Source of the DNA: Bacteroidaceae bacterium
Lineage (GTDB): Bacteria; Bacteroidota; Bacteroidia; Bacteroidales; Bacteroidaceae
NCBI GenBank assembly: GCA_017556045.1
Contig: JAFZFF010000064.1
Location: forward strand, 1 to 36,576
Length of the DNA stretch: 36,576 nucleotides
Direction: 5' to 3'
Shown: one piece after another, positions 1,988-36,155 of the stretch
How the letters are laid out: the number at the start of each line of letters is the position of its first letter
Position numbering within the stretch: the first letter of the stretch is position 1
Notes under the pieces: model-generated
What the model was told of the DNA's origin: nothing
What the model saw: only the letters and a program-made list of their open reading frames with translations
The model's database searches: none
Program-made: the position numbers and the translations under genes

Positions 1988-2146
1988 ATTCTTGAGTTTA
2001 TGAGTTGGTTAGTTTATATGTTGGGGGATTCTTCATCTGGTGCAAAATTAGTAAAGTTTTTTTAAGGGTTTCGCTATTTGTAAAAGAAAATGTACTATTT
2101 TTGTACTGAGAACTCACAAACTGATGAACTAAGAAACATATAACTC
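1988..2146. repeat. inverted pair of degenerate 7-9-mer arrays between divergent starts
   Basis: The region between two divergent start codons has AACTCA-type repeats on both sides. Read on the minus strand, the left array (about 2029-1988) has units AACATAT, AACTCAT, AAACTCA and runs into the ATG at 1987. Read on the plus strand, the right array (2109-2146) has units AACTCAC, AACTGATG, AACTAAG and runs into the ATG at 2147. Between them lies CATCTGG at 2034-2040, similar to the core found in other elements of this window. Unit length drifts between 7 and 9. Confidence 0.55.
2096..2103 (+). promoter_or_regulatory. candidate -7 promoter box of the FAH gene
   Basis: TATTTTTG fits TAnnTTTG and lies 43 bases before the ATG at 2147. 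A TTTG at 2077-2080 could be the -33 element, but the spacing of 15 is shorter than usual, so the call is tentative. Confidence 0.4.
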
Positions 2147-2764
2147 ATGAAGATTATCTGCGTGGGCATGAACTATGCCGAACATAATAAGGAACTCGAT
2201 GGCTCAGCTGCTAAGCCGGCTAACCCTGTCATTTTTATGAAGCCCGACTCGGCGATATTGAAAGGTGGCAAACCTTTCTTTATTCCCGACTTTGCGGAGC
2301 GATTTGACTATGAGGCAGAGCTGGTAGTGCGCATCAGTAAGTTGGGCAAGAATATTGCTCCACGCTTTGCACATCGCTATTATGATGCGGTAACTGTGGG
2401 TGTTGATATCACGGCACGAGATATGCAGGAGCGCTTCCGTAAGGAGGGATTGCCTTGGGAACTGTGTAAGGGATTCGATGGCTCTGCGGTATTGGGTGAT
2501 TTTGTTCCTATGGAGCGTTTTGCTAATGTGCAGAACATACGTTTCCGCCTTGATATTGATGGGGGTACCGTGCAACAAGGACACTCTGCAGAGATGCTCT
2601 ATAGCGTAGATGAGTTGGTGGCTTATGTGAGCCAATTCTTTATGTTGAAGACGGGTGACCTTATCTTTACAGGTACTCCTGTGGGAGTCGGCCCCTTGCA
2701 GATAGGTCAGCACGTAGAGGGTTTCTTAGAGGGTGAGCGTGTATTGGCGTTTAACGTAAGATAG
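2147..2764 (+). CDS. fumarylacetoacetate hydrolase (FAH) family protein
   Basis: A 205-residue single-domain FAH-family enzyme of the FAHD1/YcgM type. It begins MKIICVGMNYAEHNKEL, the usual start of the family, followed by PVIFMKPDSAIL, an acidic metal-binding EAELVVRI (the E-x-E pair), GVDITARDMQ and the C-terminal GDLIFTGTPVGVGPL. These proteins bind Mg or Mn and act as acylpyruvases, oxaloacetate decarboxylases or hydratase/isomerases of beta-diketo acids; the exact substrate cannot be read from sequence. The length is that of the compact family members, without an extra N-terminal domain. No pathway genes adjoin it. It converges with the patatin gene, 24 bases apart. Confidence 0.9.
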   Translation: MKIICVGMNYAEHNKELDGSAAKPANPVIFMKPDSAILKGGKPFFIPDFAERFDYEAELVVRISKLGKNIAPRFAHRYYDAVTVGVDITARDMQERFRKEGLPWELCKGFDGSAVLGDFVPMERFANVQNIRFRLDIDGGTVQQGHSAEMLYSVDELVAYVSQFFMLKTGDLIFTGTPVGVGPLQIGQHVEGFLEGERVLAFNVR

Positions 2765-2788
2765 TCCCTCTTCTCTACATGGGGCTGC

Positions 2789-5104
2789 TTAAAAGTCATA
2801 TCCAAGGCTGAAGTATGCGCCAAAGCGGTGGTAGCGGTCGTTCCAGTGTCCACTCAGCATGAGAGGGCCAAAGGTGGTGTTATAGATGACTCCCATCCCG
2901 AAACCCCAGATGCCACGCTCATTAAATGTCTCACTCAGACGATTCGCGCTATGGGCATAGTTGACTGTGCTTGATAGGTAGAGGTCTGACACAATCGTCT
3001 GCCTTACCTCTATACGAGCCATTGTCAGCATTCGATGCATAAATTCACTGCCATGTAGCCCTATGAATGGTGCTTGCTGTTCGACATATCGGCCTGGCAG
3101 GTAACCTCCAATACTATTGCCATAGACCATGGGGATATTATCTCCCAATAGCAAGCGCATGTATAGCGTTGGCTGCAGTACCAGGCCTTCATGGAGGGAG
3201 ATAGCTCTTGAGGCATCAGCTTGAAGCGTTAAGAAATGTCCTGCTCCACTACTACGAGGAATATGATACTCTGCCTCCACACCATAGGCGTACCCCGCAG
3301 TGGGCATGTAGGCTGCATCAAACAGATCATTGTGCATTGAGGCGTATAGTCCTACATACGTGGCGTAATGTTCGGTATCGGTATAGCTGTCTTTGGGGAG
3401 TTCCTCGGGGTGTATGCCTCTGATTTGGAAATGGTCGTAGCGTATGCCTAAGCGCCCATCATATTGTCGCGAAAACAGCTGAGAGAGGTATACGTCGGTG
3501 CCAAAAAAATGATAGTCAAACGCGTGACTGCTCTTATTATAGAATCTGTTGACATCAGAGAACCAGTACTTCATCGTACCATTTATTTGCGGCAGATTAT
3601 ACCATGCATATGCCATGTGCCCCTCAATCCAGGGATTTATACTGAGTCGTGTAGTGACGTCAAACTTTGGTCCCGAGAGTGCCAGGCGATTGATGCCGAT
3701 ACTAAATAGCGCAGCAGCTGCATCCTCAGAGTCGAGGCGCAGCCCGAGTTCCACTTGATTCTTCGGGTTTGGGGTCACCTCCATTTTTAGTGTATAAGGT
3801 CCTTGCCCCAGCAGGTGGTACTGAACGGAAGAGAATGTACCCATACCGTAGATGTGTTCGATAGCATCGTACAGGTCGTCTATACTCACCAATTCGCCGA
3901 CCTCGATACCTTGCTGCGTCAAGAGCGAAAGCATCATGGTACTGTCTATACCCTCAATGATGATATTACTGATTTCAAATCGGTCTGACAGCTCCGCAAG
4001 TGGTGATGTGACTTCTTGATTTTCTGCATTCATAGCATGAGATGCAAGGAGTATCTTTTCCTTCACATTCATTAGTTCCGCTCTGCTTTGGCATGCTGTC
4101 GTATAGCCAATATCTACCAGCTTTCTGAGTCGTAAGGTGTCAAACCCCATCACGGGAAAACTGCTTACCAGGGGACGAATCAGCACATCGGTATCTCGTA
4201 TGTTTCGCCTTCTTGCTTCGGCTCCCATAGTGCTGATTAGTCGCTCAAAGATGGAGGGGAAGGTGTGCAAAGTCATAGGAGAGGTAGTACCCGTACTGAG
4301 GTCTACACCTATCACAATGTCTGCTCCCATAGCTCGTGCTACATCTACAGGATAGTTATTAACCACGCCACCATCTACCAACACCATGCTATCTCTGTAT
4401 ATGGGGTAGAAGACTCCTGGGATGGACATACTTGCCCGCATAGACTCAGCCAGGAAACCCCGATTGAGCACTACAGCATCGCCCGTCACCAAGTCTGTAG
4501 CCACGCATGCAAACGATCGTGGCAGGGTAGCGTAGGTCACAGAGTCATGAAAGGCTATAGTCAGTGCCGTAAATTCATTCAACAGGTTTTGCCCATCGAT
4601 GAGTCCTGGTCTTGCGAGCACCTTGGGAAAGGTGCGCTCGCTGTTTCTGCGTACTCTGATGCCCGCGTCTCGATAGCGTGCATTCCCCTCGGTCCGCATG
4701 TCCTCTTCGTATGGGATGTTTATCTGGTAATATCGTTCAGCCATACGCATGTTATAAGGTTGTATCTGACGAGGTACACCATTGCTCAGCAACATCTTCC
4801 AATCGCGTGTCATGAGCAGCGAGTCCATCTCGTCTGCCGTATACCCTATAGCATACAATCCCCCCACGATAGCTCCCATACTTGTACCTGTGACGATATC
4901 TATTGGTATCTGCAGCTCCTCGATAAGGCGTATTACACCGATATGTGCTGCTCCACGTGCACCGCCACCACTCAAAACAAGCGCTATCTTGGGCTCTTGG
5001 CTCACCTGCGTTGTGTCCACACTCAGCTGTGCACGGCATACTATCGTCAAGCATAAGCACAAGCCCATCATTATATATCTAATATGTCTCATCCCTGCAT
5101 ACAT
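2789..5104 (-). CDS. patatin-like phospholipase with C-terminal outer-membrane barrel
   Basis: A 771-residue protein with a signal peptide (about residues 8-25, ending CRAQ), an N-terminal patatin domain and a C-terminal Omp85-like barrel. The patatin domain has the oxyanion loop GGGARG (46-51), the nucleophile motif GTSMG (Ser75) and the catalytic DGG (244-246), so the Ser-Asp dyad is intact. A linker region at about 360-450 (IIIEGIDSTMMLSLLTQQGIEVGE) looks like one POTRA domain, and the rest to the terminal SLGYDF is a barrel ending in an aromatic residue. This matches the PlpD/RssA-type proteins (type Vd secretion family). It would hydrolyse acyl lipids at the outer membrane. It lies 78 bases downstream of porT on the same strand. 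Confidence 0.88.
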   Translation of the reverse strand: MYAGMRHIRYIMMGLCLCLTIVCRAQLSVDTTQVSQEPKIALVLSGGGARGAAHIGVIRLIEELQIPIDIVTGTSMGAIVGGLYAIGYTADEMDSLLMTRDWKMLLSNGVPRQIQPYNMRMAERYYQINIPYEEDMRTEGNARYRDAGIRVRRNSERTFPKVLARPGLIDGQNLLNEFTALTIAFHDSVTYATLPRSFACVATDLVTGDAVVLNRGFLAESMRASMSIPGVFYPIYRDSMVLVDGGVVNNYPVDVARAMGADIVIGVDLSTGTTSPMTLHTFPSIFERLISTMGAEARRRNIRDTDVLIRPLVSSFPVMGFDTLRLRKLVDIGYTTACQSRAELMNVKEKILLASHAMNAENQEVTSPLAELSDRFEISNIIIEGIDSTMMLSLLTQQGIEVGELVSIDDLYDAIEHIYGMGTFSSVQYHLLGQGPYTLKMEVTPNPKNQVELGLRLDSEDAAAALFSIGINRLALSGPKFDVTTRLSINPWIEGHMAYAWYNLPQINGTMKYWFSDVNRFYNKSSHAFDYHFFGTDVYLSQLFSRQYDGRLGIRYDHFQIRGIHPEELPKDSYTDTEHYATYVGLYASMHNDLFDAAYMPTAGYAYGVEAEYHIPRSSGAGHFLTLQADASRAISLHEGLVLQPTLYMRLLLGDNIPMVYGNSIGGYLPGRYVEQQAPFIGLHGSEFMHRMLTMARIEVRQTIVSDLYLSSTVNYAHSANRLSETFNERGIWGFGMGVIYNTTFGPLMLSGHWNDRYHRFGAYFSLGYDF

Positions 5105-5182
5105 TGTCCAGCGTTAACAATGCATGCTTGTGAAATGTTGTATACAAGATGTTAGAAAAAAGAGAGGTAAAAGTGCGAAGCC

Positions 5183-10442: not shown

Positions 10443-10449
10443 AACTTTT

Positions 10450-10530
10450 GGAATTAAAAATTGAACATTAGTTTGCCATCCGGGAGTAATTATCCATTGT
10501 CAATTATCCCTTGTCAATTGTCAATTAACA
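10450..10530. repeat. inverted heptamer arrays between the AAA and DUF4435 genes
   Basis: On the plus strand, 10489-10530 is six heptamers: ATTATCC, ATTGTCA, ATTATCC, CTTGTCA, ATTGTCA, ATTAACA. On the minus strand, about 10470-10450 gives ATGTTCA, ATTTTTA, ATTCCAA and then reaches the GTG start of the DUF4435 gene. The centre holds CCATCCGGGAG (10476-10486). The TGA stop of the ATPase gene (10523-10521) is the first three bases of one heptamer read on the minus strand. Confidence 0.75.
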
Positions 10531-14598: not shown

Positions 14599-14602
14599 TT
14601 TT

Positions 14603-14687
14603 GTTTAGTGTTTAGTGTTTAGTGTTTAGTGTTGAGTGTTTAGTGTTAAAAGAAGCATCCGGAGGTTCCCTCAACACTCAACCCTCA
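14603..14687. repeat. inverted heptamer arrays between the cca and AlbA_2 genes
   Basis: 14603-14644 is six near-perfect heptamers (GTTTAGT x4, GTTGAGT, GTTTAGT; on the minus strand ACACTAA/ACACTCA). 14667-14687 is three heptamers on the other strand: TCCCTCA, ACACTCA, ACCCTCA. GTTGAGTGTT (14631-14640) pairs perfectly with AACACTCAAC (14673-14682). The centre holds GCATCCGGAGG (14655-14665). The TGA stop of the cca gene (14680-14678) is the start of one heptamer, and the last residues of that protein come from the array. Confidence 0.8.
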
Positions 14688-16114
14688 ACTGGACTTAATC
14701 CCATCTCCTTTGCCTTCTTCATCATATACTCATAGGCGGCATCGTGCTCATTGGGGATGATACCATCGAGGATTGCGTCTTTGATGCTGCTCTTGAGAGC
14801 TCCCACCTCGGCACAAGGCGTGAGACCAAAGGTACGCATGATCTCATCGCCATCGACAGGGGGTTGGAAGTTACGTATGCGGTCGCGCTCCTCAAGGTCT
14901 TTGAGTTTCACACGCACGAGGCGGAAGTTGTCGAGGAAGCGCTGCTTGCGCATCTCATTCTTAGAGGTGATATCGGCCTCACACAGCAACATCAAGTCGT
15001 CGATGTCGTCACCTGCCTCGAAGAGTAGGCGGCGTACGGCGCTGTCGGTGACCTCCTCATCGGCGATGACGATGGGGCGCATGTGGAGCCCTACGAGCTT
15101 TTGCACGTACTTCATCTTCTCGTTCATGGGGAGCTTCATGTTGCGGAATATGGTGGGTATCATCTTTTCACCTATGAAGTTGTGGTTATGGAATGTCCAG
15201 CCTAGGCGAGGATCCCAACGCTTGGTGCGAGGCTTGCCTATATCATGGAGCAGGGCTGCCCAGCGAAGCCATAGGTTGTCGGTATGTCGAGCTACGTTGT
15301 CCAGCACCTCGAGTGTGTGGTAGAAGTTGTCCTTATGGGCACGTCCGTTCATCTTCTCTACTCCTTGCAGTGCTGCCAGCTCGGGGAAGATGAGGGGGAG
15401 CAGTCCGCAGCGGTCGAGCTCGACGAATCCCTTTGAGGGGATGGGCGATGCGAGTATCTTATTGAGTTCGTCTATGATGCGTTCCTTAGAGATAATCTTG
15501 ATGCGCTCGGCATTGCGCGTGAGTGACTCGAAGGTCTCCTCCTCGATGAAGAAGTTGAGCTGTGTAGCAAAGCGTACACAACGCATCATGCGCAGGGGGT
15601 CATCGCTGAAGGTCACATCTGGATCCAACGGTGTACAGATGAGGCGCTCCTCCATATCGAGCAATCCGTCAAAGGGGTCGGTGAGTTCGCCGAAGCGCTC
15701 GGCATTGAGGCATACGGCCAGGGCGTTGATGGTAAAGTCGCGGCGATTCTGATCATCCTCCAAGGTGCCATCCTCGACGATAGGCTTGCGTGAGTCATGG
15801 GTATACGACTCCTTGCGAGCACCTACGAACTCCACCTCCATATCGCGCCACTTGAGCTGTGCGGTGCCAAAGTTACGGAAGATGCTCACGTGAGCGCCAC
15901 GCCCAAGTTTCTTGCGCAGGGCCTCAGCCATCTTGATGCCACTACCTACGACCACCACATCGATGTCCTTGGATGGACGCTCCAGGTATAGGTCGCGTAC
16001 ATAGCCTCCTACGACGTAGCACTCGAGTCCCAACTCATCTGCTGTAGTGCCAATGAGGCGAAACAGTTTGTTCTCGAACATTGCCTTCAGCTCCTCAGGT
16101 GATATATGTCTCAT
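14678..16114 (-). CDS. cca: CCA-adding tRNA nucleotidyltransferase with HD domain
   Basis: A 478-residue class II nucleotidyltransferase. It has the family signature YVVGGYVRDLYLERPSKDIDVVVVG (GG 36-37, DxD at 50-52), then RRDFTINALAV, the head and neck region DPLRMMRCVRFA, and an HD phosphohydrolase domain with ALLHDIGKP and a later LVGLHMRPIV. In Bacteroidota this architecture is the usual tRNA CCA-end enzyme, adding or repairing the 3' CCA in the cytosol; poly(A) polymerase is the related alternative and cannot be fully excluded. The length is normal. The final residues (PVEG) and the stop codon lie in a heptamer array, which suggests that the natural 3' end was replaced by that element. 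Confidence 0.88.
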   Translation of the reverse strand: MRHISPEELKAMFENKLFRLIGTTADELGLECYVVGGYVRDLYLERPSKDIDVVVVGSGIKMAEALRKKLGRGAHVSIFRNFGTAQLKWRDMEVEFVGARKESYTHDSRKPIVEDGTLEDDQNRRDFTINALAVCLNAERFGELTDPFDGLLDMEERLICTPLDPDVTFSDDPLRMMRCVRFATQLNFFIEEETFESLTRNAERIKIISKERIIDELNKILASPIPSKGFVELDRCGLLPLIFPELAALQGVEKMNGRAHKDNFYHTLEVLDNVARHTDNLWLRWAALLHDIGKPRTKRWDPRLGWTFHNHNFIGEKMIPTIFRNMKLPMNEKMKYVQKLVGLHMRPIVIADEEVTDSAVRRLLFEAGDDIDDLMLLCEADITSKNEMRKQRFLDNFRLVRVKLKDLEERDRIRNFQPPVDGDEIMRTFGLTPCAEVGALKSSIKDAILDGIIPNEHDAAYEYMMKKAKEMGLSPVEG

Positions 16115-21604: not shown

Positions 21605-21642
21605 ATATAATTTTATTATTAATTTTTTAACAAGTCAAAAAA

Positions 21643-21894: not shown

Positions 21895-21905
21895 TCCTTT
21901 TAATT

Positions 21906-21956: not shown

Positions 21957-21983
21957 ATGTAAACAAACAACATTAGTAGACCA

Positions 21984-22874: not shown

Positions 22875-22896
22875 TCAACCCATAAAACGATATATA

Positions 22897-25551: not shown

Positions 25552-25577
25552 GAAACAATTAACACATACATACTACT

Positions 25578-26813
25578 ATGGATAAGAAATATTGGTTACT
25601 GATGAAGTCGAATGTATATGCCGATTTCAAAGAGAAACAGGCGCTGTTATACGATACAGACAGCGGTAAGTGTATAACGCTGTTCCAAGGAGAACAGATG
25701 GCTTTGGTGAAGGCTTTGTACGAAGATCTGAACCTCGGTTCTATAGAGGTCAGCAGTTGCGACCTGACTGATGATGAGAAGGGTGCGTGCATACACCTGC
25801 TGAACGACTATGGAATGGCACGCCTTATACCAATGGATGAATGTCCCACGAAACCTGTAGCATTGGTACCTATCTTGTCGCTCAACAAGGATGTAGACAA
25901 ACTGAAGGATAAAGAGGAGGGAAAGCTGCTCCTATCCAAGGACATCACCAAATACCTGTTGGATGTAAATATACAATTGACTGATTATTGCCCACAGTCG
26001 TGCTCACATTGCAGTGGTTATTGCAAGCAGTTTCCTTGCTGTACGAAAGGCCGTGAATCTATGGGACAATTGCCAGCAGAGAGTCTGGAGAAGCTATTAC
26101 GGCAAGTGGGCCATTATCCTGTGCGTACCATCAATATTACGGGAGGCGATATCTATACCTACAAGCATCTTGACCTGTTCTCCTCCCTGTTTGCTGCAGG
26201 GACGAAGATGCTGAACTTCTACGTCAGTTACCTCAACTATCGTCCCCACGAGATAGTAGACTGTCATCGGATACATATTTTAGTTAATGCTCCGCTCCAT
26301 ACCGATAGACTCAAGGAGGTAATCGCACAAACAAAGAAGAAGGATGTGTGCTTCCATATTATAGTGGCGGACGGACAGCAATATGAGGCTATTGCATCCG
26401 TGTTGGAAGAAGAACAGATTGAAGACTTCCAGATACATCCTTTCTATAATGGGACGAATATGGATTTCTTTAAGGAGAATGTATACCTCAGCAAAGAAGA
26501 TATAGAATCGGGCAAACTGTCAATACGTGAGATTTTCCGCAACCAGAAGATGAATGCCAATTTCTTCGGCAGCCTGTATTTCTACCCTGACGGCACAGTG
26601 AAGGCCAACCCCAACTGTGCGGTCATAGGCAATATCATGAACGATGAGATTATCGATATCATATTCAAGGAGATGATAGACAATACGGCATGGCGTAAAG
26701 TGCGGGATGCTGCCCCCTGCAGCCGATGTGTATACCAGTTTATATGTCCTCCTCTCTCCAATTATGAGCTGGCTATTGGCAAGTGTGATTTATGTACCAT
26801 CAACCAACAATAA
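25578..26813 (+). CDS. second radical SAM protein of the GG-Bacteroidales system (pseudo-rSAM family)
   Basis: A 411-residue protein. The N-terminus (KKYWLLMKSNVYADFKEKQALLYDTDSGK) and the stretch SGYCKQFPCC are those of the proteins named pseudo-rSAM in GG-Bacteroidales systems. This copy, however, has CPQSCSHC, a complete CX3CX2C (Cys 138, 142, 145), and INITGGDIYTYKHLD as a GGE-like motif with Asp in place of Glu. The C-terminus has a SPASM-like set (NCAVIGN, CSRCVYQFICPPLS, KCDLC). It may thus be an active enzyme or a partner that binds the precursor. The N-terminal 100 residues may act as a peptide-binding (RRE-like) part. The LanC-like gene starts 5 bases after its stop. Confidence 0.8.
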   Translation: MDKKYWLLMKSNVYADFKEKQALLYDTDSGKCITLFQGEQMALVKALYEDLNLGSIEVSSCDLTDDEKGACIHLLNDYGMARLIPMDECPTKPVALVPILSLNKDVDKLKDKEEGKLLLSKDITKYLLDVNIQLTDYCPQSCSHCSGYCKQFPCCTKGRESMGQLPAESLEKLLRQVGHYPVRTINITGGDIYTYKHLDLFSSLFAAGTKMLNFYVSYLNYRPHEIVDCHRIHILVNAPLHTDRLKEVIAQTKKKDVCFHIIVADGQQYEAIASVLEEEQIEDFQIHPFYNGTNMDFFKENVYLSKEDIESGKLSIREIFRNQKMNANFFGSLYFYPDGTVKANPNCAVIGNIMNDEIIDIIFKEMIDNTAWRKVRDAAPCSRCVYQFICPPLSNYELAIGKCDLCTINQQ

Positions 26814-26817
26814 CACT

Positions 26818-27438
26818 ATGGATACTCTCGACCGCTTAATCAGCTATCTGGTACTGCGCAGTGCCACGACGCATGCGCTGAGCCTGTACCATGGGAAGAT
26901 GGGAATTGTCTTGACACTGATGATATATGCCCAACATTACAGCAGACCTCACCTGTACAATTATGCCGAGCGTTTATTACTCAACGTTTGTGACAATATT
27001 CCAGAGAATATGGCACCTGGACTTGAAGAAGGACTTGCTGGTATAGGATTCGGCATTACGATACTGCACAAGAATGGGTTAGTTGATGGTAGCCTTGACG
27101 ATATATTGGCCGACATCGATACCCAATTGATGAGATATGATCCGAGACGATACAGCGATTTTTCTTTCCGTACTGGATTATGCGGCATAAAGTACTATAT
27201 CGATACGCGTCGTAAGTACTATGGGAAATCGGGGACTATCGACCCTGTCTATGAGAGGGAACTCACTTTAGCATTGGAAAGGAACAAGGAAAAATGTGAG
27301 CAATATACACACATGATGGACGACATCATTGCGCCAATGTGGCCAATCGAAGAATATAAAGAAAAGGAACTTGGGATAGATAATGGATGTGCATATTACA
27401 TAATAAAGGAGATATATGATGAAGTACTATCTGATTAA
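26818..27438 (+). CDS. half-size LanC-like protein
   Basis: A 206-residue protein, starting at ATG 26818 just after the previous stop. Three to four repeats of the LanC toroid signature are visible: YHGKMGIVLTLMIYA, GLEEGLAGIGFGITIL, FRTGLCGIKYYID and, near the end, LGIDNGCAYYIIKEIY. Full LanC cyclases have about 400 residues and a Cys-Cys-His zinc site; here the protein is half that length and I see no zinc-binding WC...CHG motifs. It is probably a non-catalytic or partner-dependent LanC-like fold. The end overlaps the next gene by 23 bases, which points to coupled translation and perhaps a complex with that protein. Confidence 0.65.
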   Translation: MDTLDRLISYLVLRSATTHALSLYHGKMGIVLTLMIYAQHYSRPHLYNYAERLLLNVCDNIPENMAPGLEEGLAGIGFGITILHKNGLVDGSLDDILADIDTQLMRYDPRRYSDFSFRTGLCGIKYYIDTRRKYYGKSGTIDPVYERELTLALERNKEKCEQYTHMMDDIIAPMWPIEEYKEKELGIDNGCAYYIIKEIYDEVLSD

Positions 27439-29068
27439 CCATGCCAGTCGTGCTGCAGCATACGGTATAGGTACCTATATAAAAAATCTGTTGCAATGTC
27501 TGAAAGGTATTCCTGAGATAAAGCCAGTACTGATTGATCTCTCTGCCGATGTGGATGAGTTTTCGGTGACGGAAAGAGATGGTCTCGAGCATATAATGAT
27601 ACCGATAAACAACAAACCTTACGGAGGCGAATTGTATGCTCATGCCATAGTGAACCTGCTGACTGATTATCTGCCAACGGAGGAGCATTGTGTGTTTCAT
27701 TTCAATTATTTCCAACATTATGACTTGGCGCGCCTATTGAAGTCGCGCTATTCCCATTGTCACTTGATTTTCGCTATCCATTATTTTGGTTGGTGCTTCG
27801 CACTGAATGGAAATGTCACTCGTTTCAGAAACATTATTCAAAAAAATGAGATCCTCGAGAAAAAGGATTGGGATGTTTTGAGTGATTATAGAAACGATAC
27901 ACGTTTTTTTGCCCTATGCGATAAAGTAATTGCCCTTTCTTCCTTTACTGCCAATCTGTTAGATGAAGACTATGGTGTGGCTCCAGAAAAGATTTTCTTA
28001 ATATATAATGGTATGGACACCAAGGAACTGATAACAGACTTTCATTATCATGCAGAGAAGAAGAAAAATATTCTTTTTGTGGGTCGGCTGGACAACATAA
28101 AAGGAATAGACTATATCATCAAGGCTTTCCGCCTACTGTTGGAAAGAGGTATAGATACTCACCTTACATTAGTTGGTGATGGTAATTTTAACCAATATTT
28201 GTCATTATGCGACGGCATCTGGGATAAAGTGACCTTTACTGGAAAAATTACAAAAATGCAGCTCGCAGATCTTTATCAAGGAATAACAATTGCAGTGCAA
28301 CCCTCTTTTCATGAGCAATGTAGCTACTCCGCTATAGAGATGATGGGATATGGAATACCTTTGATTGCTACAGATACAACAGGATTAAAAGAAATGATGG
28401 AATATACACCTGAATGTATAGTTCATATTAATGAGACCAATTTCAATGAACAAATATTCATTGAAGAACTGAGTGAGAGAATGAAACATCTGCTCGAGAA
28501 TATTGATTTGTGTTATAGCGTGTCAGAGCGACAGAGATATCTGTTTAACAAACGATATTCGCTTGATTGTATGAAAAAATCTATGTCTAAAATATGCATT
28601 AACGCTACTGTTGAATCCCCATTATCCAGATCCTTTTATTTTCATTTGGATTCAAAGATGATAGGGTTAATAAATTGCTATGCAGACATTGACGTAGGTA
28701 TTAATGGATTAGCAGGTATCGGATGTTATATGTGGTACCGTATATGTGAATTTGCAAATAAAAGGAATCAAGCTGAGTTATCATTAAAACTACAAGAGCA
28801 CCTAATATACTATGTGGATTGGATTTATGATACGCTGAAAAAGATGCAAGATTACAACAATGCTCTTAAAGATGGTTCTCTACTATATATATTGTATAAA
28901 CTCCTTGACAAAGGCTTTTACAAAACAAAAGTACAGCTCATTATTGACATGCTACCCATTGAGGAATATATACCGAATAAGGATAAATTTGCAATTCTTG
29001 TAGGAAAGAACAGACAGCTCATTATAAACAACGCGTTGGGTATCTATAATACTTACTATAATTTATGA
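27416..29068 (+). CDS. GT4 glycosyltransferase with C-terminal LanC-like segment
   Basis: A 550-residue protein. Residues 1-395 are a GT-B glycosyltransferase of family 4: N-terminal RAAAYGIGTYIKNLLQCL, then NILFVGRLDNIKGIDYIIKAFRLLLERG, LTLVGDGNFNQYL, VTFTGKI and the donor site QPSFHEQCSYSAIEMMGYGIPLIATDTTGLKEMM. It looks like the glycosyltransferases recorded with radical SAM peptide systems in Bacteroidota (TIGR04157 type, from memory). Residues about 410-550 are extra; they include DVGINGLAGIGCYMWYRICEF, a LanC-type toroid repeat like those in the upstream gene. AAAGGAG lies 8 bases before the ATG, unusual here. Strongly AT-rich. It probably glycosylates the peptide. Confidence 0.75.
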   Translation: MMKYYLINHASRAAAYGIGTYIKNLLQCLKGIPEIKPVLIDLSADVDEFSVTERDGLEHIMIPINNKPYGGELYAHAIVNLLTDYLPTEEHCVFHFNYFQHYDLARLLKSRYSHCHLIFAIHYFGWCFALNGNVTRFRNIIQKNEILEKKDWDVLSDYRNDTRFFALCDKVIALSSFTANLLDEDYGVAPEKIFLIYNGMDTKELITDFHYHAEKKKNILFVGRLDNIKGIDYIIKAFRLLLERGIDTHLTLVGDGNFNQYLSLCDGIWDKVTFTGKITKMQLADLYQGITIAVQPSFHEQCSYSAIEMMGYGIPLIATDTTGLKEMMEYTPECIVHINETNFNEQIFIEELSERMKHLLENIDLCYSVSERQRYLFNKRYSLDCMKKSMSKICINATVESPLSRSFYFHLDSKMIGLINCYADIDVGINGLAGIGCYMWYRICEFANKRNQAELSLKLQEHLIYYVDWIYDTLKKMQDYNNALKDGSLLYILYKLLDKGFYKTKVQLIIDMLPIEEYIPNKDKFAILVGKNRQLIINNALGIYNTYYNL

Positions 29069-29853
29069 ATACATTACTGGAGAAAAAATGCACATTTGTT
29101 ATTCCCATTCGCATAGACTGTGAGGAACGAGTAAGGAATCTACGTACGGTAGTTGATTGGTTGATTCCTCTATGTGCACCAATCCTTATTTTAGAGGCAG
29201 ATAAGGAACAACATATTTCTTTTGATACATTTGGGAATAATTCGAATAATTTGTTATCTGTACATTTTGTTAAAGATGAGGAAAGAGTGTTTCATCGAAC
29301 TCACTATATTAATGAATTGATTAAATTGGCAAAAACACCTTTTGTGGCAGTATGGGATGCTGATATAATTATTGATAGGGAGCAGATACTACGTGCCGTA
29401 TGTTATTATCTCATAGAAGAAAGATATACGTTAATATGTCCTTATAACAAAGAATGTGCTTATTTGAATGAACATATGAGTCATATTTTTTCCGCCAATC
29501 ATAATATTGATTTTTTACACCACAAGAAACTGAAGAGTTATATAGGAAGACCGGTTTGTGGAGGTGCATATATCGTCAATAAAAGACTATATAATAGCAT
29601 TGGGGGAGAAAATGAAAATTTTATAGGATGGGGGCCCGAAGATGCCGAACGAATACGACGTACGCAAATCATGGGACATAAGATGGGGTGGATAGAAGAT
29701 GGAAATTGTGCATATCATCTATATCATCCTCAAAATGAGAACTCACGTTTCTTTAGTGAAGAAACGGCATTGTCAACACGTCAAGAGTTTATTAAGGTAT
29801 GCAGTATGAACAGGGAGGAATTGAGTGAATATATAAAAACAATGCCGCGATGA
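29065..29853 (+). CDS. GT-A glycosyltransferase with galactosyltransferase-like C-terminus
   Basis: A 262-residue protein. FVIPIRIDCEERVRNL opens a GT2-like nucleotide-sugar fold; FVAVWDADIII holds the DxD metal motif (about 100), and GGAYIVNKRLYNSIGGENENFIGWGPEDAERIRR is the Glyco_transf_7C motif with the W-G-x-E-D catalytic region. This fits enzymes that transfer Gal or GalNAc type sugars. Its start overlaps the upstream GT4 stop (ATGA) and its stop overlaps the exporter start, so the three genes are translationally coupled. With the GT4 enzyme and the DUF3405-like protein it makes three glycosyltransferase-like genes in one RiPP island. AT-rich. Confidence 0.78.
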   Translation: MNTLLEKKCTFVIPIRIDCEERVRNLRTVVDWLIPLCAPILILEADKEQHISFDTFGNNSNNLLSVHFVKDEERVFHRTHYINELIKLAKTPFVAVWDADIIIDREQILRAVCYYLIEERYTLICPYNKECAYLNEHMSHIFSANHNIDFLHHKKLKSYIGRPVCGGAYIVNKRLYNSIGGENENFIGWGPEDAERIRRTQIMGHKMGWIEDGNCAYHLYHPQNENSRFFSEETALSTRQEFIKVCSMNREELSEYIKTMPR

Positions 29854-32057
29854 TGTCTTTCCCTCACTATCAACAGCAGGAAGTCGTAGACTGCGGCCCC
29901 ACCTGTCTGCGCATGATAGCCAAGCATTACGGTAAGGTGTACTCGGCCGAGATGCTGCGCAAGCACAGCTACATATCACGTGAAGGGGTATCGATGCTGG
30001 GCATCAGCGATGCTGCTGAGTATATCGGTTTTCATACGCTGGGGGTGAAGATCTCGTTTGAGCAGCTGGTGCACGACGGCACGTTCCCCTGCATACTGCA
30101 TTGGAACCAGAACCATTTTGTGGTGTGTTACAAAATCAAGAAACGGCGTAGTGGGGATTACGACATCTATATCTCCGACCCAGCCACACAGAGGCTCTGC
30201 TTCAGTAAGAAGGAGTTTCTCAAATGCTGGATAAGTACCAAGGAGAAGGGACGCGACTGCGGTACAGCCCTGATGCTGGAACCTGGCGTGGAGTTCGGTG
30301 AACGTGAAGATGATATTGAGACTGGCAAGCATAGCCTGGGCTACTTCCTCCGTTACCTGAAACCTTACAAAAGTCAGTTTGTGCAGCTGGTGATGGGACT
30401 GCTGGTGGGCAGTGTGCTGCAATTGATATTCCCGTTCCTCACACAGGCTATGGTGGATTGGGGTATCGAGGGAGGCGACATGAATGTCATTACGCTCATA
30501 CTCATCGCCCAATTGGTACTGTTTGTGGTACAGCTCTCGGTGGGGTATATACGCAGCTGGATCATGCTACATGTGAGTTCGCGCATCAACATAGCTCTTA
30601 TCTCGGACTTCCTGATGAAGCTGATGAGCATGCCTCTCCACTTCTTCGACACGAAGCGTACGGGCGACATCATGCAGCGCATAGGTGACCACGGGCGCAT
30701 CAAGTCGCTGCTCATGGGCAACTCGCTCAATATGGTGTTCGCCATCGTTAACTTCTTTGTCTTCACCGCTGTGCTGGCCTACTATAACTTGACCATATTG
30801 GGGATATTCGCCGTAGGCAATACGCTCTACGTGCTATGGGTGCTCTACTTCATGCGTTACCGCAGGGAGCTCGACATCAAACGCTTCTATCAAGCTTCCA
30901 CCGAGCAGAGCAAGATGATACAGATGATACAGGGTATGCAGGACATTAAGCTCAACAACTGCGAGAAGCAGCAACGGTGGGAATGGGAGCGCATACAGGT
31001 GAAACTGTTCAAGATCAGTGTGCGCGGACTCACCATCGGACAGGTGCAACAGACGGGCTCGGCATTCTTCACCCAGTCAACCAACATACTGACAACCTAT
31101 ATTGCGGCACGGGCTGTAGTCAATGGCGAGATGACTTTGGGTATGATGATGTCGCTTACCTATATCTTGGGACAGGTATCGGCACCCATACGTGACTTCA
31201 TAGGATTCGCTCAGAAGTGGCAGGATGCAAAGATAAGCCTTGAGCGTCTCAATGAGATACATGCACAGGAGGACGAGGAGTACGACATTGACATGAAGAT
31301 GAGCAGGTTGCCCAAGAATCGTAGTATAGAAATCAAGAATTTGACATTCAGCTACAGTGGTGCCGAGCGCGACTATGCCGTAGAGAACATTAACCTCAGT
31401 ATACCCGAGCAAAAGGTGACGGCATTGGTAGGCGAGAGCGGTTGCGGAAAGTCAACACTGATAAAGCTGTTGCAAGGATTCTACACCCCCAACAGCGGAA
31501 GCATACGCGTGGGCGGTATGCTGCTCAATGCCATCAACCCGCATCTGTGGCGCAGCCGCACGGGGTCGGTAATGCAAGAGAGTTTCATCTTCTCTGACAC
31601 AATAGCCCGAAACATCGCACTCGACACCGATGAGATAGATGTGGAGCGCATGTACGATGCTGCCATACTGGCCAATGCCGATGAGTTCATCTCGGCTATG
31701 CCTATGGGATACAACACCAAGATTGGTATGGAGGGCAACGGGGTAAGCCAAGGTCAGCGGCAACGTATACTGATAGCGCGTGCCATATACAAGAATCCTG
31801 AATATCTGTTCTTTGATGAAGCTACCAATGCTCTCGATGCCACGAACGAGCGCCTTATCATGACCAATCTGTATGACTTCTACAAAGGTAAGACAGTGGT
31901 AGTGGCGGCGCACCGCCTGAGTACGGTGATGAATGCCGACCAGATAGTGGTGATGAAGAAAGGCCGTATCGTGGAAGTGGGCACGCACCGCGAATTGGTA
32001 GAGAGGCGCGGCGAGTACTATGCACTGGTGAAAAACCAACTGGAATTGGGAAATTGA
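29850..32057 (+). CDS. C39 peptidase-containing ABC exporter
   Basis: A 735-residue PCAT transporter. The N-terminal C39 peptidase (1-135) has QEVVDCGPTCLRMIAKHYG with catalytic Cys15, HWNQNHFVV with His89, and SDPA with Asp110. A six-helix membrane domain follows at about 160-450, then an ABC ATPase: Walker A GESGCGKSTLI, Q-loop VMQESFIF, signature GVSQGQRQR, Walker B YLFFDEAT and switch AHRLS, all intact. It should cut the leader after the GG at residues 26-27 of the precursor and export the core across the inner membrane. The gene is GC-rich, in sharp contrast to the glycosyltransferase gene it overlaps by 4 bases. Confidence 0.92.
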   Translation: MMSFPHYQQQEVVDCGPTCLRMIAKHYGKVYSAEMLRKHSYISREGVSMLGISDAAEYIGFHTLGVKISFEQLVHDGTFPCILHWNQNHFVVCYKIKKRRSGDYDIYISDPATQRLCFSKKEFLKCWISTKEKGRDCGTALMLEPGVEFGEREDDIETGKHSLGYFLRYLKPYKSQFVQLVMGLLVGSVLQLIFPFLTQAMVDWGIEGGDMNVITLILIAQLVLFVVQLSVGYIRSWIMLHVSSRINIALISDFLMKLMSMPLHFFDTKRTGDIMQRIGDHGRIKSLLMGNSLNMVFAIVNFFVFTAVLAYYNLTILGIFAVGNTLYVLWVLYFMRYRRELDIKRFYQASTEQSKMIQMIQGMQDIKLNNCEKQQRWEWERIQVKLFKISVRGLTIGQVQQTGSAFFTQSTNILTTYIAARAVVNGEMTLGMMMSLTYILGQVSAPIRDFIGFAQKWQDAKISLERLNEIHAQEDEEYDIDMKMSRLPKNRSIEIKNLTFSYSGAERDYAVENINLSIPEQKVTALVGESGCGKSTLIKLLQGFYTPNSGSIRVGGMLLNAINPHLWRSRTGSVMQESFIFSDTIARNIALDTDEIDVERMYDAAILANADEFISAMPMGYNTKIGMEGNGVSQGQRQRILIARAIYKNPEYLFFDEATNALDATNERLIMTNLYDFYKGKTVVVAAHRLSTVMNADQIVVMKKGRIVEVGTHRELVERRGEYYALVKNQLELGN

Positions 32058-32088
32058 ATTATTGTTGAACCATAATAACAGAACTACA

Positions 32089-32583
32089 ATGAAGAAAAGA
32101 GAATTACCAGAGCTGCACGCCTACAGCGAGGATGTGCAGGAACTGATGAGCCGTATACCTTCGAAGACCGTACGTTGGGGACTGGGTATCATCTGTGGAC
32201 TGCTGGTAGCATTCCTGGTGGCCAGCTGTTTCATCCGCTGTCCCAAGTACCTATGGCTAAAGTCGCGGATGGAGTATGTGTATAACGACTCGATTGGTAT
32301 GAGTATTCTCACAGGGGTGGCCTATGTCACTGACAGCGACCTGAGAAAGTTGGAGGTAGGGATGCCTATCTTCTACCGTTTTGTCGAATGTGAATTCAAG
32401 GGGTGTATCGCGGGCCTTACCCCCAAATACGATCCTATAATGCAAATGAAGAGCGTGAAACTATACTTCGACCCCGATGAGAAGGTGCATCCTATCTATA
32501 TCAATGGCTATGGTGTGCCAGGCAAGGTGAGATTGTCAAACCCGACGCTGTTTGAATGTATCTTCTTACGTAAGAAGAGATAG
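32089..32583 (+). CDS. short membrane-fusion-protein-like partner of the exporter
   Basis: A 164-residue protein, starting at ATG 32089 (MKKRELPELHAYSEDVQELMSRIPSKTVRW). The leader EDVQELMSRIPS and one transmembrane helix (about 32-52, GLGIICGLLVAFLVASCFI) match the N-terminus of HlyD-like proteins of Bacteroidota bacteriocin exporters. After the helix there is a small beta domain with DSIGMSILTGVAYVTDSDLRKLEVGMPIFYRF, similar to the barrel part, but the long coiled-coil hairpin and lipoyl domain of a normal 400-residue HlyD are absent. It may hold the exporter in place without reaching an outer-membrane channel; a separate TolC-like gene is not in the window. Last gene of the island. Confidence 0.6.
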   Translation: MKKRELPELHAYSEDVQELMSRIPSKTVRWGLGIICGLLVAFLVASCFIRCPKYLWLKSRMEYVYNDSIGMSILTGVAYVTDSDLRKLEVGMPIFYRFVECEFKGCIAGLTPKYDPIMQMKSVKLYFDPDEKVHPIYINGYGVPGKVRLSNPTLFECIFLRKKR

Positions 32584-33878: not shown

Positions 33879-34253
33879 GTGTATGCACAGGCCTATGCAC
33901 TATGGCAGCAGGGCTTCCGCTACTGGTTTGACGATGAGGAGAATGCCGAGCTGGAGCGGCACAACCGCCAGTTTGAGGAACCCAACATCGAGGAGGAGCT
34001 CATCCTTACCTACCTGCGCCAGCCCTACGGCGACGAGGCGGGCGAGTTCCTCACGGCCACGCGCATCATCGAGCTTGTGGGTATGTATGTGAAGTGCCAG
34101 CTATCGCCCAAGCGTGTGGCGTATGCGATGCGTCGCCTCGGGTTTGAGCAGCGTCGCACGAAGAGTGCACGAGGGTGGAACGCGGTGATACTCACGGGCG
34201 ATGACATCAAGAACAACCAACGCCAGAATGCACGCATGAGCGATGCAGGATAA
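33879..34253 (+). pseudogene. 3' remnant of a VirE-type primase gene (DUF3874-like)
   Basis: A frame of 124 residues from GTG 33879; a TAA lies directly before it, so nothing more is coded upstream. The text YAQAYALWQQGFRYWFDDEENAELERHNRQFEEPNIEEELILTYLRQP followed by ATRIIELVGMYVKCQLSPKRVAYAMRRLGFEQRRTKSARGWNAVIL is the C-terminal domain of Bacteroidales VirE/virulence-associated E primase-helicases (DUF3874). The large N-terminal part, with primase and ATPase domains, is missing. VirE, DUF4248 and HU-like genes are commonly neighbours in Bacteroidales, and the other two are present here, so this is the decayed member of that set. Confidence 0.72.
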
Positions 34254-34259
34254 TCTCAT

Positions 34260-34389
34260 GGGTGACAGATGACACATGGAATCCTATATACCCTATATAT
34301 AGAAAAATAAATAATTATATTTTAAAAATAATTTAATTAATTATTTAAATGTATATCCCATATAGGAAAGCAAGTGTCATCCGTCACCC
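34260..34389. repeat. nested inverted repeat with AT-rich centre
   Basis: GGGTGACAGATGACAC (34260-34275) is repeated inverted at 34374-34389 with one mismatch, and TCCTATA (34282-34288) pairs with TATAGGA (34361-34367). The 50 bases between are almost only A and T. The layout resembles a cruciform or an easily melted replication/primase site, next to a primase remnant. Confidence 0.7.
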
Positions 34390-34407
34390 TTTCACTCGTA
34401 CTAAATC

Positions 34408-34434
34408 AACGTTAACGATAACGATAACGTTAAC
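34408..34434 (+). repeat. RACGNT hexamer array
   Basis: AACGTT AACGAT AACGAT AACGTT AAC: four units of a degenerate hexamer and the usual RAC end. A heptamer array follows directly. Confidence 0.75.
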
Positions 34435-34467
34435 CCTCAACATTCAACCCTCAACCCTCAACAAACA
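34433..34467 (+). repeat. heptamer array ending at the DUF4248 start codon
   Basis: ACCCTCA, ACATTCA, ACCCTCA, ACCCTCA, ACAAACA, the last running into the A of the ATG. The same end (ACAAA plus one base, then the start codon) is seen before the AlbA_2 gene at 14598. Confidence 0.75.
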
Positions 34468-34685
34468 TGGAACACGACAACCTCCGCGCCTACGGCAAAG
34501 CCGAGCTGGCGCAACTATACAGCCCAGGAGCCTCGCGTGCCTCAGCCCTACGCTTGCTCAACAAGTACCTGCACGCCGCCGACGGCCTGCTCGATGCATT
34601 GCAGCGCACAGGCTACACGCGTGGCTCACGCCACTTCACCCGCTATCAGGTGAGACTGATATTTGAATATCTTGGCGAGCCGTAG
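34467..34685 (+). CDS. DUF4248 protein
   Basis: A 72-residue protein of the DUF4248 family: LRAYGKAELAQLYSPGASRASALRLLNKYLHAADGLLDALQRTGYTRGSRHFTRYQVRLIFEYLGEP, with the usual Y-G-x-x-ELA-LY start and the Q-V-x-x-I-x-x-YLGEP end. It looks like a small helix-turn-helix protein. Family members are common beside VirE primases and HU-like proteins in Bacteroidales, with no known role. The last codons lie in the left arm of a hairpin (34671-34696) that opens the following repeat element, and the upstream region is a heptamer array. Confidence 0.85.
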   Translation: MEHDNLRAYGKAELAQLYSPGASRASALRLLNKYLHAADGLLDALQRTGYTRGSRHFTRYQVRLIFEYLGEP

Positions 34686-34894
34686 GCTTCGCCAAGAACG
34701 ATAACGATGACGTTAACGATAACCAGCTCCGCGATGAATGCTATTCAACGATAACCAGGCTCCGCGATGAATGCACTGTCCCTCTTTAAGGGGGACGAGC
34801 GAAGCGGAGGGGGTAATAGTCATCGTCATCGTTATCGTTATCGTTAAAAAAGTACATGCATGTACCGCGCGTGGTGCATGCATGTACTTTTTTT
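34671..34894. repeat. composite hexamer element A, left of the MntA/HepT pair
   Basis: In order: hairpin CTTGGCGAGCC / GGCTTCGCCAAG (34671-34696); forward hexamers AACGAT AACGAT GACGTT AACGAT AAC (34697-34723); a unit AACGATAACCAG(G)CTCCGCGATGAATGC in two copies (34715-34741 and 34747-34774); inner hairpin GTCCCTCTT / AAGGGGGAC (34778-34796); reverse hexamers (34819-34845, (ATC/GTT) units); hairpin GTACATGCATGTAC / GTGCATGCATGTAC flanked by A6 and T7 (34846-34894), a likely two-way terminator. Confidence 0.8.
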
Positions 34895-34926
34895 ATTACA
34901 AGTTTGTAATATGATGCATTGATGTA

Positions 34927-35277
34927 CTATTCTGATAATTCTGCGTAATATGCTTCGATATAGGGCTTTAGGGTGGGGATGTCATGCTCTACGGTATTCC
35001 ACAGTTGCTTGGGACGTATTTGGTAATAACCGTGTACCAACACATGACGCATGCCCTCAATGACATCCCAGTCTACTTCGGGATGATCAGCGCGAAACTC
35101 TTTTGTAAGCATATATACTGCTTCGCCGATAATCTCGACATGTTTGACAAAACCATAGAAAAGGATTGGGTCAGCTTCTACCTCCTCGAAAGTGTAGCGA
35201 ACCTTGTGCTCCATCAGAGTATTGATGGCATCTAAGATATGCTTCAGACGCCCTACGTCCTTAATTTTTTCTCTCAT
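34927..35277 (-). CDS. hepT: HepT-like HEPN toxin (DUF86)
   Basis: A 116-residue all-helical HEPN protein. GMRHVLVHGYY has the RX4HXY motif (Arg77, His82, Tyr84), which is the RNase site and also carries the tyrosine that the partner MntA AMPylates. The N-terminus (KDVGRLKHILDAINTLMEHKV) and VKHVEIIGEAVYMLTKEF are as in the family. HepT cuts tRNA or mRNA when free and is silenced by its antitoxin. The gene overlaps mntA by 17 bases and follows it, as is usual for this system. The pair lies between two composite hexamer elements, which suggests it entered as a cassette. Confidence 0.88.
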   Translation of the reverse strand: MREKIKDVGRLKHILDAINTLMEHKVRYTFEEVEADPILFYGFVKHVEIIGEAVYMLTKEFRADHPEVDWDVIEGMRHVLVHGYYQIRPKQLWNTVEHDIPTLKPYIEAYYAELSE

Positions 35278-35569
35278 AAATCAAGATTTTATCCTGTTCG
35301 GCACTCTTTGAAGCAAAGGGGAGCAGACGACTGCGCTCTACCAAGTCGACTGTTCTTCCCGTCATCTTGCGTAGTGCAGTGGCGATACGAGAGATGGTAA
35401 ACAACGATATGGAATCGCTGTCAGTATACTCTACCAATAGATCGATGTCGCTATCTGCGGTCTCCTCACCGCGCGAATACGAACCGAACAGCCATGCCTT
35501 GCTGATAGGTTGTTCTGATAGATACCCCTGTATCTGAGGTATCATCTGTTGCATTCTATGACTCAACAT
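35261..35569 (-). CDS. mntA: MntA-like nucleotidyltransferase antitoxin
   Basis: A 102-residue minimal nucleotidyltransferase: AWLFGSYSRGEETADSDIDLLVEY has GS (29-30) and the metal pair Asp41/Asp43; a later TGRTVDLVERSRLL carries the third acidic residue. In the MntA-HepT system this enzyme transfers AMP to the tyrosine of the HepT RX4HXY motif and so blocks the toxin. The full motif set is present, so it should be active. It is the first gene of the two-gene unit on the minus strand. A clear promoter box is not seen upstream of 35569; that region leads into hexamer element B. Confidence 0.88.
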   Translation of the reverse strand: MLSHRMQQMIPQIQGYLSEQPISKAWLFGSYSRGEETADSDIDLLVEYTDSDSISLFTISRIATALRKMTGRTVDLVERSRLLPFASKSAEQDKILIYERKN

Positions 35570-35630
35570 ACTTTACTTCTCTTTTGGTTTCGTACTGCGA
35601 AGATACAAACTCTTTTGAATTAAAACAATA

Positions 35631-35802
35631 TTACCCCGACTTTTTCTTGAAGTCGGGTAACGTTGACGATAACGCTAACGTTAACTGCCTCCAGTAATTG
35701 AACAATGCAACGATAACTTTAGCTCCGCGACGTGTACCCATCCGGTAGGTGGTTATCGTCATCGTTATCGTTAGAAAAAGATAAGTTGACTTATCTTTTT
35801 CT
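35631..35802. repeat. composite hexamer element B, right of the MntA/HepT pair
   Basis: In order: hairpin TTACCCCGACTT / AAGTCGGGTAA (35631-35660); forward hexamers AACGTT GACGAT AACGCT AACGTT AAC (35659-35685); AACGATAAC plus AGCTCCGCGA (35709-35730), shared with element A; core CCATCCGGTAGG (35738-35749); reverse hexamers (35752-35772); hairpin AGAAAAAGATAAG / CTTATCTTTTTCT with TTGA loop (35773-35802). Confidence 0.8.
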
Positions 35803-35840
35803 CTCCGTAGCATATCAAATTCAGAATGGGAGGGGTGCGT

Positions 35841-35960
35841 GATTTCGTACCTTTGCACTACGAAATCAACGATGACGATAACGAAAACGATAACTACCGT
35901 CCGGAAGGATAGTCAACGTCAGCGTCAACGTTAACGTTAGATTTCAACAACGTTGAAATG
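35841..35960. repeat. composite hexamer element C
   Basis: In order: hairpin GATTTCGTA / TACGAAATC (35841-35867); hexamers AACGAT GACGAT AACGAA AACGAT AAC (35868-35894); core CCGTCCGGAAGG (35897-35908); reverse hexamers (35913-35939); hairpin ATTTCAAC / GTTGAAAT (35941-35959). A TACCTTTG at 35848-35855 inside the first hairpin fits a -7 promoter box and could drive the HU-like gene with a 300-base leader. Confidence 0.75.
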
Positions 35961-36060
35961 TGAATTGAATTGTCAACCCTCCCGAGGTGACCGGTAGCGG
36001 GATGTGGTTGTATGTTGAACCTCTGTCGGGCATGTACACCCATGCAAGACATACAAGACA

Positions 36061-36155
36061 AATTGAAAATTGAAAGTTGAAAATTATAGCCATCTGGCAG
36101 GGTAAACATCGCAAAGCCTAATTTTCCATTCTCAATTCTCAATTTTCCATTTAAG
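36061..36155. repeat. inverted heptamer arrays before the HU-like gene
   Basis: Left array AATTGAA, AATTGAA, AGTTGAA, AATTATA (36061-36088); core CCATCTGGCAGGG (36090-36102); right array ATTTTCC, ATTCTCA, ATTCTCA, ATTTTCC, ATTTAAG (36121-36155), 7 bases before the ATG. The two arrays are inverted relative to each other and share the AYNNTMM form of the element at 10450-10530. Confidence 0.78.

Follow-up and report, generated by a model that had tools for sequence, protein, structure and literature searches.

What are the paired, inverted arrays of short repeats that stand at gene junctions in a 36,576-nt contig of a Bacteroidaceae bacterium (JAFZFF010000064.1, assembly GCA_017556045.1), and how can they keep one layout and a similar centre when their repeat units differ? 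We refer to this whole stretch of DNA as the window, to a pair of arms with its centre as a module, and to the short motif in the centre as the core. Based on comparisons within and beyond the genus, we consider it probable, at roughly 0.6, that these are palindromic insertion modules, akin to Rickettsia palindromic elements (RPEs) and miniature inverted-repeat transposable elements (MITEs), which combine a recurrent centre with exchangeable arms and belong to one sub-clade of a Bacteroidaceae genus. The recurrent centre is found with unrelated arms, different modules occupy fixed sites, and identical modules lie in diverged flanks; modules also occur in frame, one orthologous site has its centre in inverted orientation, array lengths change by whole units, and some copies lie within a MITE-like repeat.

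The recurrent centre

All genomes compared are draft assemblies, comprising a genus set of 19 and wider sets of 61 genomes (for exact CCATCCGGNAGG) and 101 genomes (for GCTCCGCGATGTNTG). The window is contig C49 of an assembly of 2.54 Mb in 104 contigs, ~78% complete, and several core loci lie close to contig ends, as is expected of repeats. Judgements given as by eye were made by manual reading, with no scoring by script. The core is the middle of a near dyad-symmetric quasi-palindrome, CC(A/G)TCCGG-N-A-GG, and is often directly followed by NNNNCATCGCGGAGC. The genome that holds the window contains 10 exact copies of CATCCGGNAGG, compared with 3 of the reversed pattern, and all 10 are flanked by inverted arms (by eye), mostly degenerate arrays of 6-9-bp units. 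The looser pattern C[AG]TC[CT]GG.?AGG has 17 matches in a first sample of the same genome, and by a fixed periodicity criterion for 6-9-bp units, applied to each flank of the core, arrays are present on both sides of 12 and on at least one side of 14, while random positions (n = 20,000) pass the same test on both sides in 1.1% and on at least one side in 16% of cases. Within the window alone the enrichment is mild, with 8 matches at one mismatch compared with 3.3 expected, a count that 2 of 100 shuffles reach.

The core is not an artefact of the search pattern, as seeding with TCCGG only, at a stricter array threshold, recovers CCNTCCGGNNGG, the middle of the quasi-palindrome. This seed occurs 183 times, and 18 of these occurrences are flanked by arrays on both sides, a result that 0.24% of random positions give; as both strands were read, the 18 amount to 13 sites, 10 of which read CCNTCCGGNNGG, while one is a base shorter and two do not fit. 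Chance is ruled out by the genome counts, by the periodicity test compared with random positions, and by the TCCGG-seeded sites. The excess extends to the genus, where the core totals 93 occurrences over the 19 genomes compared with 21 for the reversed control. Among 79 distinct exact matches at genus loci (one of them from the window's own genome), arrays flank 38 on both sides, and 55 have an array on one side or more; the 24 that lack periodicity on either side are mostly coding-like by eye, and so are a few with one periodic side (e.g., L038, L054, and L115).

Many module centres appear to consist of two linked blocks, the quasi-palindrome CC(A/G)TCCGGNAGG and ACATCGCGGAGC. The second block, searched as GCTCCGCGATGTNTG, occurs at 18 places in the 101 genomes; by eye, palindromic or array arms enclose 16 of these, and the other two are coding. 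The arms around these 16 are AACG arrays in four cases, other short-unit arrays in six, and CCCTCC-type palindromes in six, so that unrelated arms have one centre in common.

Modules at fixed sites

If arms are exchangeable, what do orthologous sites hold? Pairs were counted where their flanks are at least 80% identical, and a module pair is said to be at the shuffled level when its identity lies within 3 standard deviations of that of shuffled module sequence. The 3' end of a CCA-transferase-like gene (window 14602-14689) belongs to a site set picked independently of the core. The neighbouring gene is kept in 11 of the 19 genus genomes, the other eight having other neighbours, and all 11 carry short-unit arms there (by eye; the module of G006 is composite). 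Flank identity is 83-93% throughout the 55 pairs, 40 of which have modules at the shuffled level. On one strand the middle reads CATCCG(G/A) in five of the 11 genomes (G000, G002, G007, G010, and G015) and TATCCGG in G011 (by eye).

A second site is the leader of the HU-HIG gene, for which the window was compared with its four best full-length matches, weaker homologues being left out. Flanks are 86-92% identical and eight of ten module pairs are at the shuffled level. Besides the module of the window, the inserts are one of the same arm family with its centre inverted (L158), one of GAGTTAT type with no core (L159), and two different CCCTCC-type palindromes (L156 and L157).

The third case lies inside coding sequence. 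A VapE-like gene, which encodes a BT4734-like N-terminal domain and a VapE-like domain, carries in-frame modules in two linkers; its alignment holds 16 sequences in which orthologues and paralogues are mixed. Site A is readable in 13 sequences and carries a module in 11 of them, L133 and L147 having only 30 nt; 10 of 13 pairs are at the shuffled level, most clearly L144/L149, with flank identity of 0.95 and module identity of 0.49 compared with 0.52 for shuffled sequence. The corresponding figure at site B is 17 of 21 pairs. Conversely, L132 and L149 share an identical 90-nt site-A module in flanks that are 73% identical, and L127 and L128 a 91% identical site-B module in flanks that are 70% identical, as movement of modules between alleles would predict. 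Six of the modules at site A, representing four distinct sequences of three arm kinds, start and end at the same columns of the alignment and are all exactly 90 nt long. Most close copies of the gene have no internal stop, with one TAG in the G015:C18 copy. A CCCTCC-type palindrome also stands in the open frame of a gene in G061, a member of another genus of the family (L236, 1658-1763), presumably encoding a cobyrinate synthase, judging by its translation; in-frame palindromes thus extend beyond the window's genus.

With many alleles of the same socket available in similar flanks, arm replacement, inversion, and change of unit number can be read directly. A sequence-only reading of the window had held that the design rather than the sequence of these elements is conserved, and this is borne out, as the same sites in relatives hold mostly unrelated arms in the same layout.

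Modules within a MITE-like repeat

By eye, a longer element with GGTGACAAAAGTTTATTTTTGGGGTGGCATGGCAG ends surrounds half of the ten core loci (L001, L004, L006, L007, and L010). Allowing up to two mismatches, the 20-base end pattern occurs 57 times in the window's own genome, 15 times in G015, and 0-4 times in other genomes, with none for the reversed control; terminal inverted repeats are thus documented for the subset with GGTGACAAAAGTTTATTTTTGGGGTGGCATG ends rather than for modules in general. Both ends are found in 16 of 20 fetched regions, 108-687 bp apart, and at least seven of these 16 enclose an array-centre-array structure with a clear or degenerate core (by eye), others enclosing different palindromes. 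The 43 ends inspected are near-identical from GGTG inward, save for two positions. The suggestion of a dispersed structural or mobile element, also made from the sequence alone, is strongly supported as well, some modules being housed in a dispersed repeat that has terminal inverted ends. The several alternative outer flanks and interiors of this family suggest nested exchangeable layers.

Arms and their exchange

Modules are mostly ~60-150 bp long, with some VapE modules of 201-252 nt, and the inverted arms appear to be either arrays of short units (6, 7, or 9 bp) or CCCTCC-type palindromes. Over 42 modules, a set that includes a few orthologous pairs, the mean local complementarity score is 13.0 for the two arms of one module compared with 9.2 for mismatched arms (0 of 5,000 permutations). 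The score is at least 10 in 26 of them and at most 9, about the mismatched level, in the other 16, and the low-scoring modules combine unrelated families, such as AACG hexamers on the left with CAATTGTC heptamers on the right. A conserved hairpin stem as the whole story is ruled out by these 16 modules. Left arms are mostly G-rich (28 versus 10) and right arms C-rich (37 versus 3).

We propose that modules settle at places that tolerate insertion, that is, intergenic DNA, gene ends, leaders, and in-frame protein linkers. The palindrome would fold during replication, and a 3' end at the hairpin tip could then switch to a second hairpin that shares this centre, where it would copy a different arm, while slippage would alter the number of units. 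A bolder version, which we hold only tentatively, is that of a structure-first selfish element whose copying recognises the hairpin and the centre rather than the arms; any palindrome could then be captured as arms, and fixed slots of the genome, some of them within reading frames, would act as sockets for a succession of different palindromes and so supply variable linkers and leaders.

Several observations weigh against insertion modules with exchangeable arms. Among the 26 array loci of the first sample, whose contigs were picked for holding the core, only eight have the core at up to one mismatch (3.9% of random windows do), so that arrays lacking it are common (18 of 26). The sequence-only reading had staked its case on the core being more frequent beside arrays than by chance and on arrays being rare without it, and only the first of these holds. 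In a second sample of 281 kb not picked for the core, there are 28 arrays and six core matches, five of which lie beside an array (by eye). Modules are also inherited, as 15 of the 55 pairs at the CCA site exceed shuffled identity by more than 3 standard deviations, four of them strongly (G013/G014 at 0.90, G015/G002 at 0.87, G004/G014 at 0.84, and G013/G004 at 0.80); the remaining pairs above the shuffled level are weakly similar, which may be the case for any arrays with a common period. Both short VapE site-A alleles, L133 and L147, are diverged copies, and the comparison of orthologous junctions with and without the element, as proposed from the sequence alone, gave different modules at the same sites but no clean empty site. 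The outer flanks of the MITE-like element are of several kinds and its outer edge is not sharp, so that no target duplication can be called, and the one copy that was compared is absent in all 14 relatives with readable upstream sequence, but the neighbouring genes differ in most of these. No transposase could be linked to the modules, Y1 (PF01797) being the only family searched and having no match in the window's own genome (~78% complete). Finally, arm exchange by template switching is something that we infer and not an observed fact.

Alternative explanations

Could the modules have evolved in place, with no mobility at all? Each site would then hold an old hairpin whose units are kept alike by slippage and whose arms are matched to each other by templated quasi-palindrome correction, so that the layout persists while the sequence drifts. 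This would account for matched arms and for the constant unit length, and it fits the related arms of up to 26 of the 42 modules, the whole-unit length difference between orthologous arrays (14 nt between L064 and L104), the heptamer units seen by eye at the CCA site in many genomes, the weak residual similarity of some pairs, and the exact 90 nt of six of the 11 modules at VapE site A. It is nevertheless unlikely. AACG hexamers, heptamers, and CCCTCC palindromes are found as alternatives at a single site whose flanks are 87-95% identical, and both the centre and the arm families turn up again at loci that are unrelated. In addition, the two arms are unrelated in 16 of the 42 modules, and identical modules occur in diverged flanks.

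A functional hairpin in mRNA leaders or between cistrons seems to us rather improbable; selection would act on its structure through RNA stability or translation, the core would serve as a loop or as a site for a protein, and the G-poor right arms would be unstructured leaders. There is modest evidence in its favour. Of 49 modules, 13 have the promoter-like motif TANNTTTG within 100 nt upstream in the sense direction and 3 in the antisense direction, with a background of 3.9% per 100 nt of the window; without the MITE copies the counts are 9 and 1, and some of the 9 look interrelated. An open reading frame starts after the right arm in 22 cases and beyond the left arm in 14, and right arms are C-rich in 37 of the 40 modules with a skew. 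On the other hand, copies occur in frame within coding sequence, the orthologous HU-HIG leader of G014 has its centre in the opposite orientation, and at window positions 10476 and 14656 the core runs antisense to both neighbouring genes. The window has no Rfam match at gathering thresholds, and none of five intrinsic-terminator-like hits in 34200-36200, the only part searched for them, overlaps an array module, one starting 2 bases after a module. Paired mRNA leader or trailer signals, which the sequence-only reading had offered as an alternative, are therefore not supported as the main role, given the in-frame copies and the inverted centre at an orthologous leader; the preference for positions downstream of TANNTTTG remains, and secondary use as a leader is plausible, as right arms often run up to the start codon (by eye).

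The core may be a common binding site, given its quasi-palindromic form, but a chromosomal site at which a dimeric nucleoid, segregation, or recombination protein binds the 12-bp quasi-palindrome, with the arms as by-products of instability, is very improbable, as its near dyad symmetry amid differing arms and its excess in the genus stand against the plain coding-like appearance (by eye) of a large part of the exact genus matches, the mere 10 exact copies in the window's own genome, and the many array loci without a core.

Distribution and associated machinery

Exact CCATCCGGNAGG is present in 39 of 61 genomes. Outside the genus, the 11 loci that were read, one per genome (L028-L037 and L056), are all coding-like by eye; many further matches exist, for example in G026, G043, G050, and G058. 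Within the genus, where 60 regions from the match list and the loci it returned were read, some genomes are rich in modules (e.g., G000, G002, G008, G011, and G013-G015) and others have few, coding-like matches. The long centre is confined to the genus among the 101 genomes but for one coding match in G061. A single scan of a genome collection returned seven stretches, four from metagenome-assembled genomes of Bacteroidaceae or Bacteroidales, the Bacteroidaceae among them from sheep and buffalo rectum, and three from Burkholderiales or Pseudomonadota; the latter three and L122 were rejected as members, being coding by eye. Spread on phages or plasmids was considered and set aside, as viral contigs contain no exact match to the long-centre pattern, and the plasmid and phage collections none to window 34380-36160.

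The Y1 family is found in seven of the 19 genus genomes, at 75.8 bits in G012 and with best scores of 22.7-39.4 bits in six others. All six weak matches are in module-bearing genomes, a weak tilt, and a weak link between the modules and Y1 in the genus may accordingly exist. The hairpin nuclease subunit SbcD (TIGR00619) scores above its cut-off in two of 19 genus genomes compared with eight of 14 control genomes, and loss of this nuclease may let long palindromes persist; as a cause it does not discriminate, since SbcD is also missing in module-poor genomes.

Relation to known elements

To our knowledge, in-frame palindromes are known mainly from Rickettsia and MITEs with tandem repeats mainly from Porphyromonas, and we know of no shared centre with exchangeable array arms among the palindromes of Volvox. 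Repetitive extragenic palindromic (REP) sequences and the bacterial interspersed mosaic elements (BIMEs) that they form are small dispersed palindromes with a conserved part, served by REP-associated tyrosine (Y1) transposases (RAYTs). In the modules described here the arms are arrays and the conserved part is the centre; a REP/RAYT system was rejected on the Y1 results above.

The published accounts, as far as their available text goes, place the modules near several systems but within none. RPEs are short palindromes of several sequence families that are found between genes and fused in frame within them (PMC10969869). The modules resemble them, by description, as dispersed palindromic elements on a scale of roughly 150 bp that also stand in frame within unrelated protein genes, and differ in having arms of short-unit arrays or CCCTCC palindromes that vary at fixed sites around a recurrent centre, in another phylum. 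BrickBuilt of Porphyromonas gingivalis is a MITE with 23-bp tandem repeats (PMC4596501); like it and MITEPgRS, part of the material here consists of non-coding repeats from a member of the Bacteroidales in which tandem repeats lie between inverted ends, but BrickBuilt has one 23-bp unit and IS5-like ends and is reported to be always intergenic, unlike the many 6-9-bp families that here are inverted around a shared centre and also occur in frame. Direct repeats of the heptamer TAACTGA near start codons, reported from Beggiatoaceae, cyanobacteria, and a few Bacteroidetes (PMC4679880), are likewise intergenic heptamer arrays, but of one unit, in direct arrays that are almost never inverted, and with no shared centre mentioned in the available text, whereas the arms here are inverted. 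Palindromic repeats of Volvox organelle DNA have been read as selfish (PMC2670323), and it is in this view of palindromes, not in their genomic setting, that they are alike. The available text of PMC4596501, PMC10969869, and PMC4679880 mentions no inverted arms of short units that vary while their centre is shared, and a literature search that covered few subscription journals found no description that we recognised as this family, which is no proof of absence.

Palindromes with swappable arms seem to be selfish or shuffling DNA of a kind about which little is known. They could account for much of the short intergenic repeat DNA in these gut Bacteroidota and would reveal a route by which protein linkers acquire new sequence.

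Modules and neighbouring genes in the window

Six sites of inverted arrays with a shared core had been described in the window from its sequence alone, a description that is borne out in the main though not in every part. Five of them hold the core; the exception is 1988-2146, which is not a member by this feature, as its CATCTGG has no NAGG after it. This doubtful member (1993-2140, no strand assigned) lies between a divergent gene pair and has inverted, weakly periodic arms. All other modules are given on the forward strand. The module at 10448-10526 has a weak left arm, barely periodic, the core CCATCCGGGAGT at 10476-10487, and a right array of CAATTRTC-like units at 10488-10526. That at 14602-14689 consists of a left array of (TGTTTAG)n at 14602-14647, the core GCATCCGGAGG at 14655-14665, and a right array of CTCAACA/CTCAACC at 14670-14689, inside which lies the stop codon of the CCA-transferase-like gene. 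The module at 35658-35773 begins with a left AACG array at 35658, followed by the centre GCTCCGCGACGTGTACCCATCCGGTAGG at 35722-35749, with the core at 35738-35749, and a right array at 35752-35773. The next, at 35868-35939, has a left AACG array at 35868-35894, the core CCGTCCGGAAGG at 35897-35908, and a right array at 35912-35939, and is preceded by a promoter-like motif, TACCTTTG, at 35848-35855. The last, at 36060-36152, comprises a left AATTGAA array (36060-36085), the core CCATCTGGCAGG (36090-36101) followed by CATCGC, and a right array (36120-36152), just after which the HU-HIG gene starts at 36163.

Two further elements of the same style had been left out. At 34408-34462, AACGNW hexamers (34408-34434) abut CTCAACC heptamers (34437-34462), facing arrays with no core between them. 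At 34697-34846, a nested module starts with AACGAT arrays at 34697 and has two GCTCCGCGATGAATGC centres (34726-34741 and 34759-34774), an inner CCCTCTTTAAGGG..GGAGGGGG palindrome (nested CCCTC...GAGGGGG), and a right GTCATCGTTATCGTT array at 34819-34846.

The arms had been described as inverted at all six sites; at 10450-10530 they are only weakly complementary. Same-size controls (n = 2,000) do as well in 0.35% of cases for 1988-2146, 5% for 10450-10530, and 0.05-0.25% for the other four, figures that are optimistic, as the arm borders of the window modules were drawn by eye. Seven of eight stretches, taken as single-stranded DNA, form better folds than their shuffles (z of -2.15 to -5.38, with -5.2 for 34700-34846), and 10450-10530 folds no better (z of +0.6).

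Some neighbouring features deserve mention. Right after the nested module, 34848-34891 forms a terminator-like hairpin with a 20-bp stem of GTACATGCATGTAC repeats and a T run, and a similar hairpin follows a related module at L229 and L240. Between the modules at 34697-34846 and 35658-35773 lies a HepT-like and nucleotidyltransferase gene pair (34927-35569; PF01934 and PF01909), likely a HEPN/MNT toxin-antitoxin pair. Further upstream, 19042-32583 resembles a peptide natural-product cluster, with names taken from reading the open reading frames: two radical-SAM/SPASM-like proteins, glycosyltransferase-like proteins, a peptidase-type ABC exporter, and a TonB-dependent-receptor-like protein, together with an 83-aa precursor-like peptide that contains a GG motif (21643-21894).

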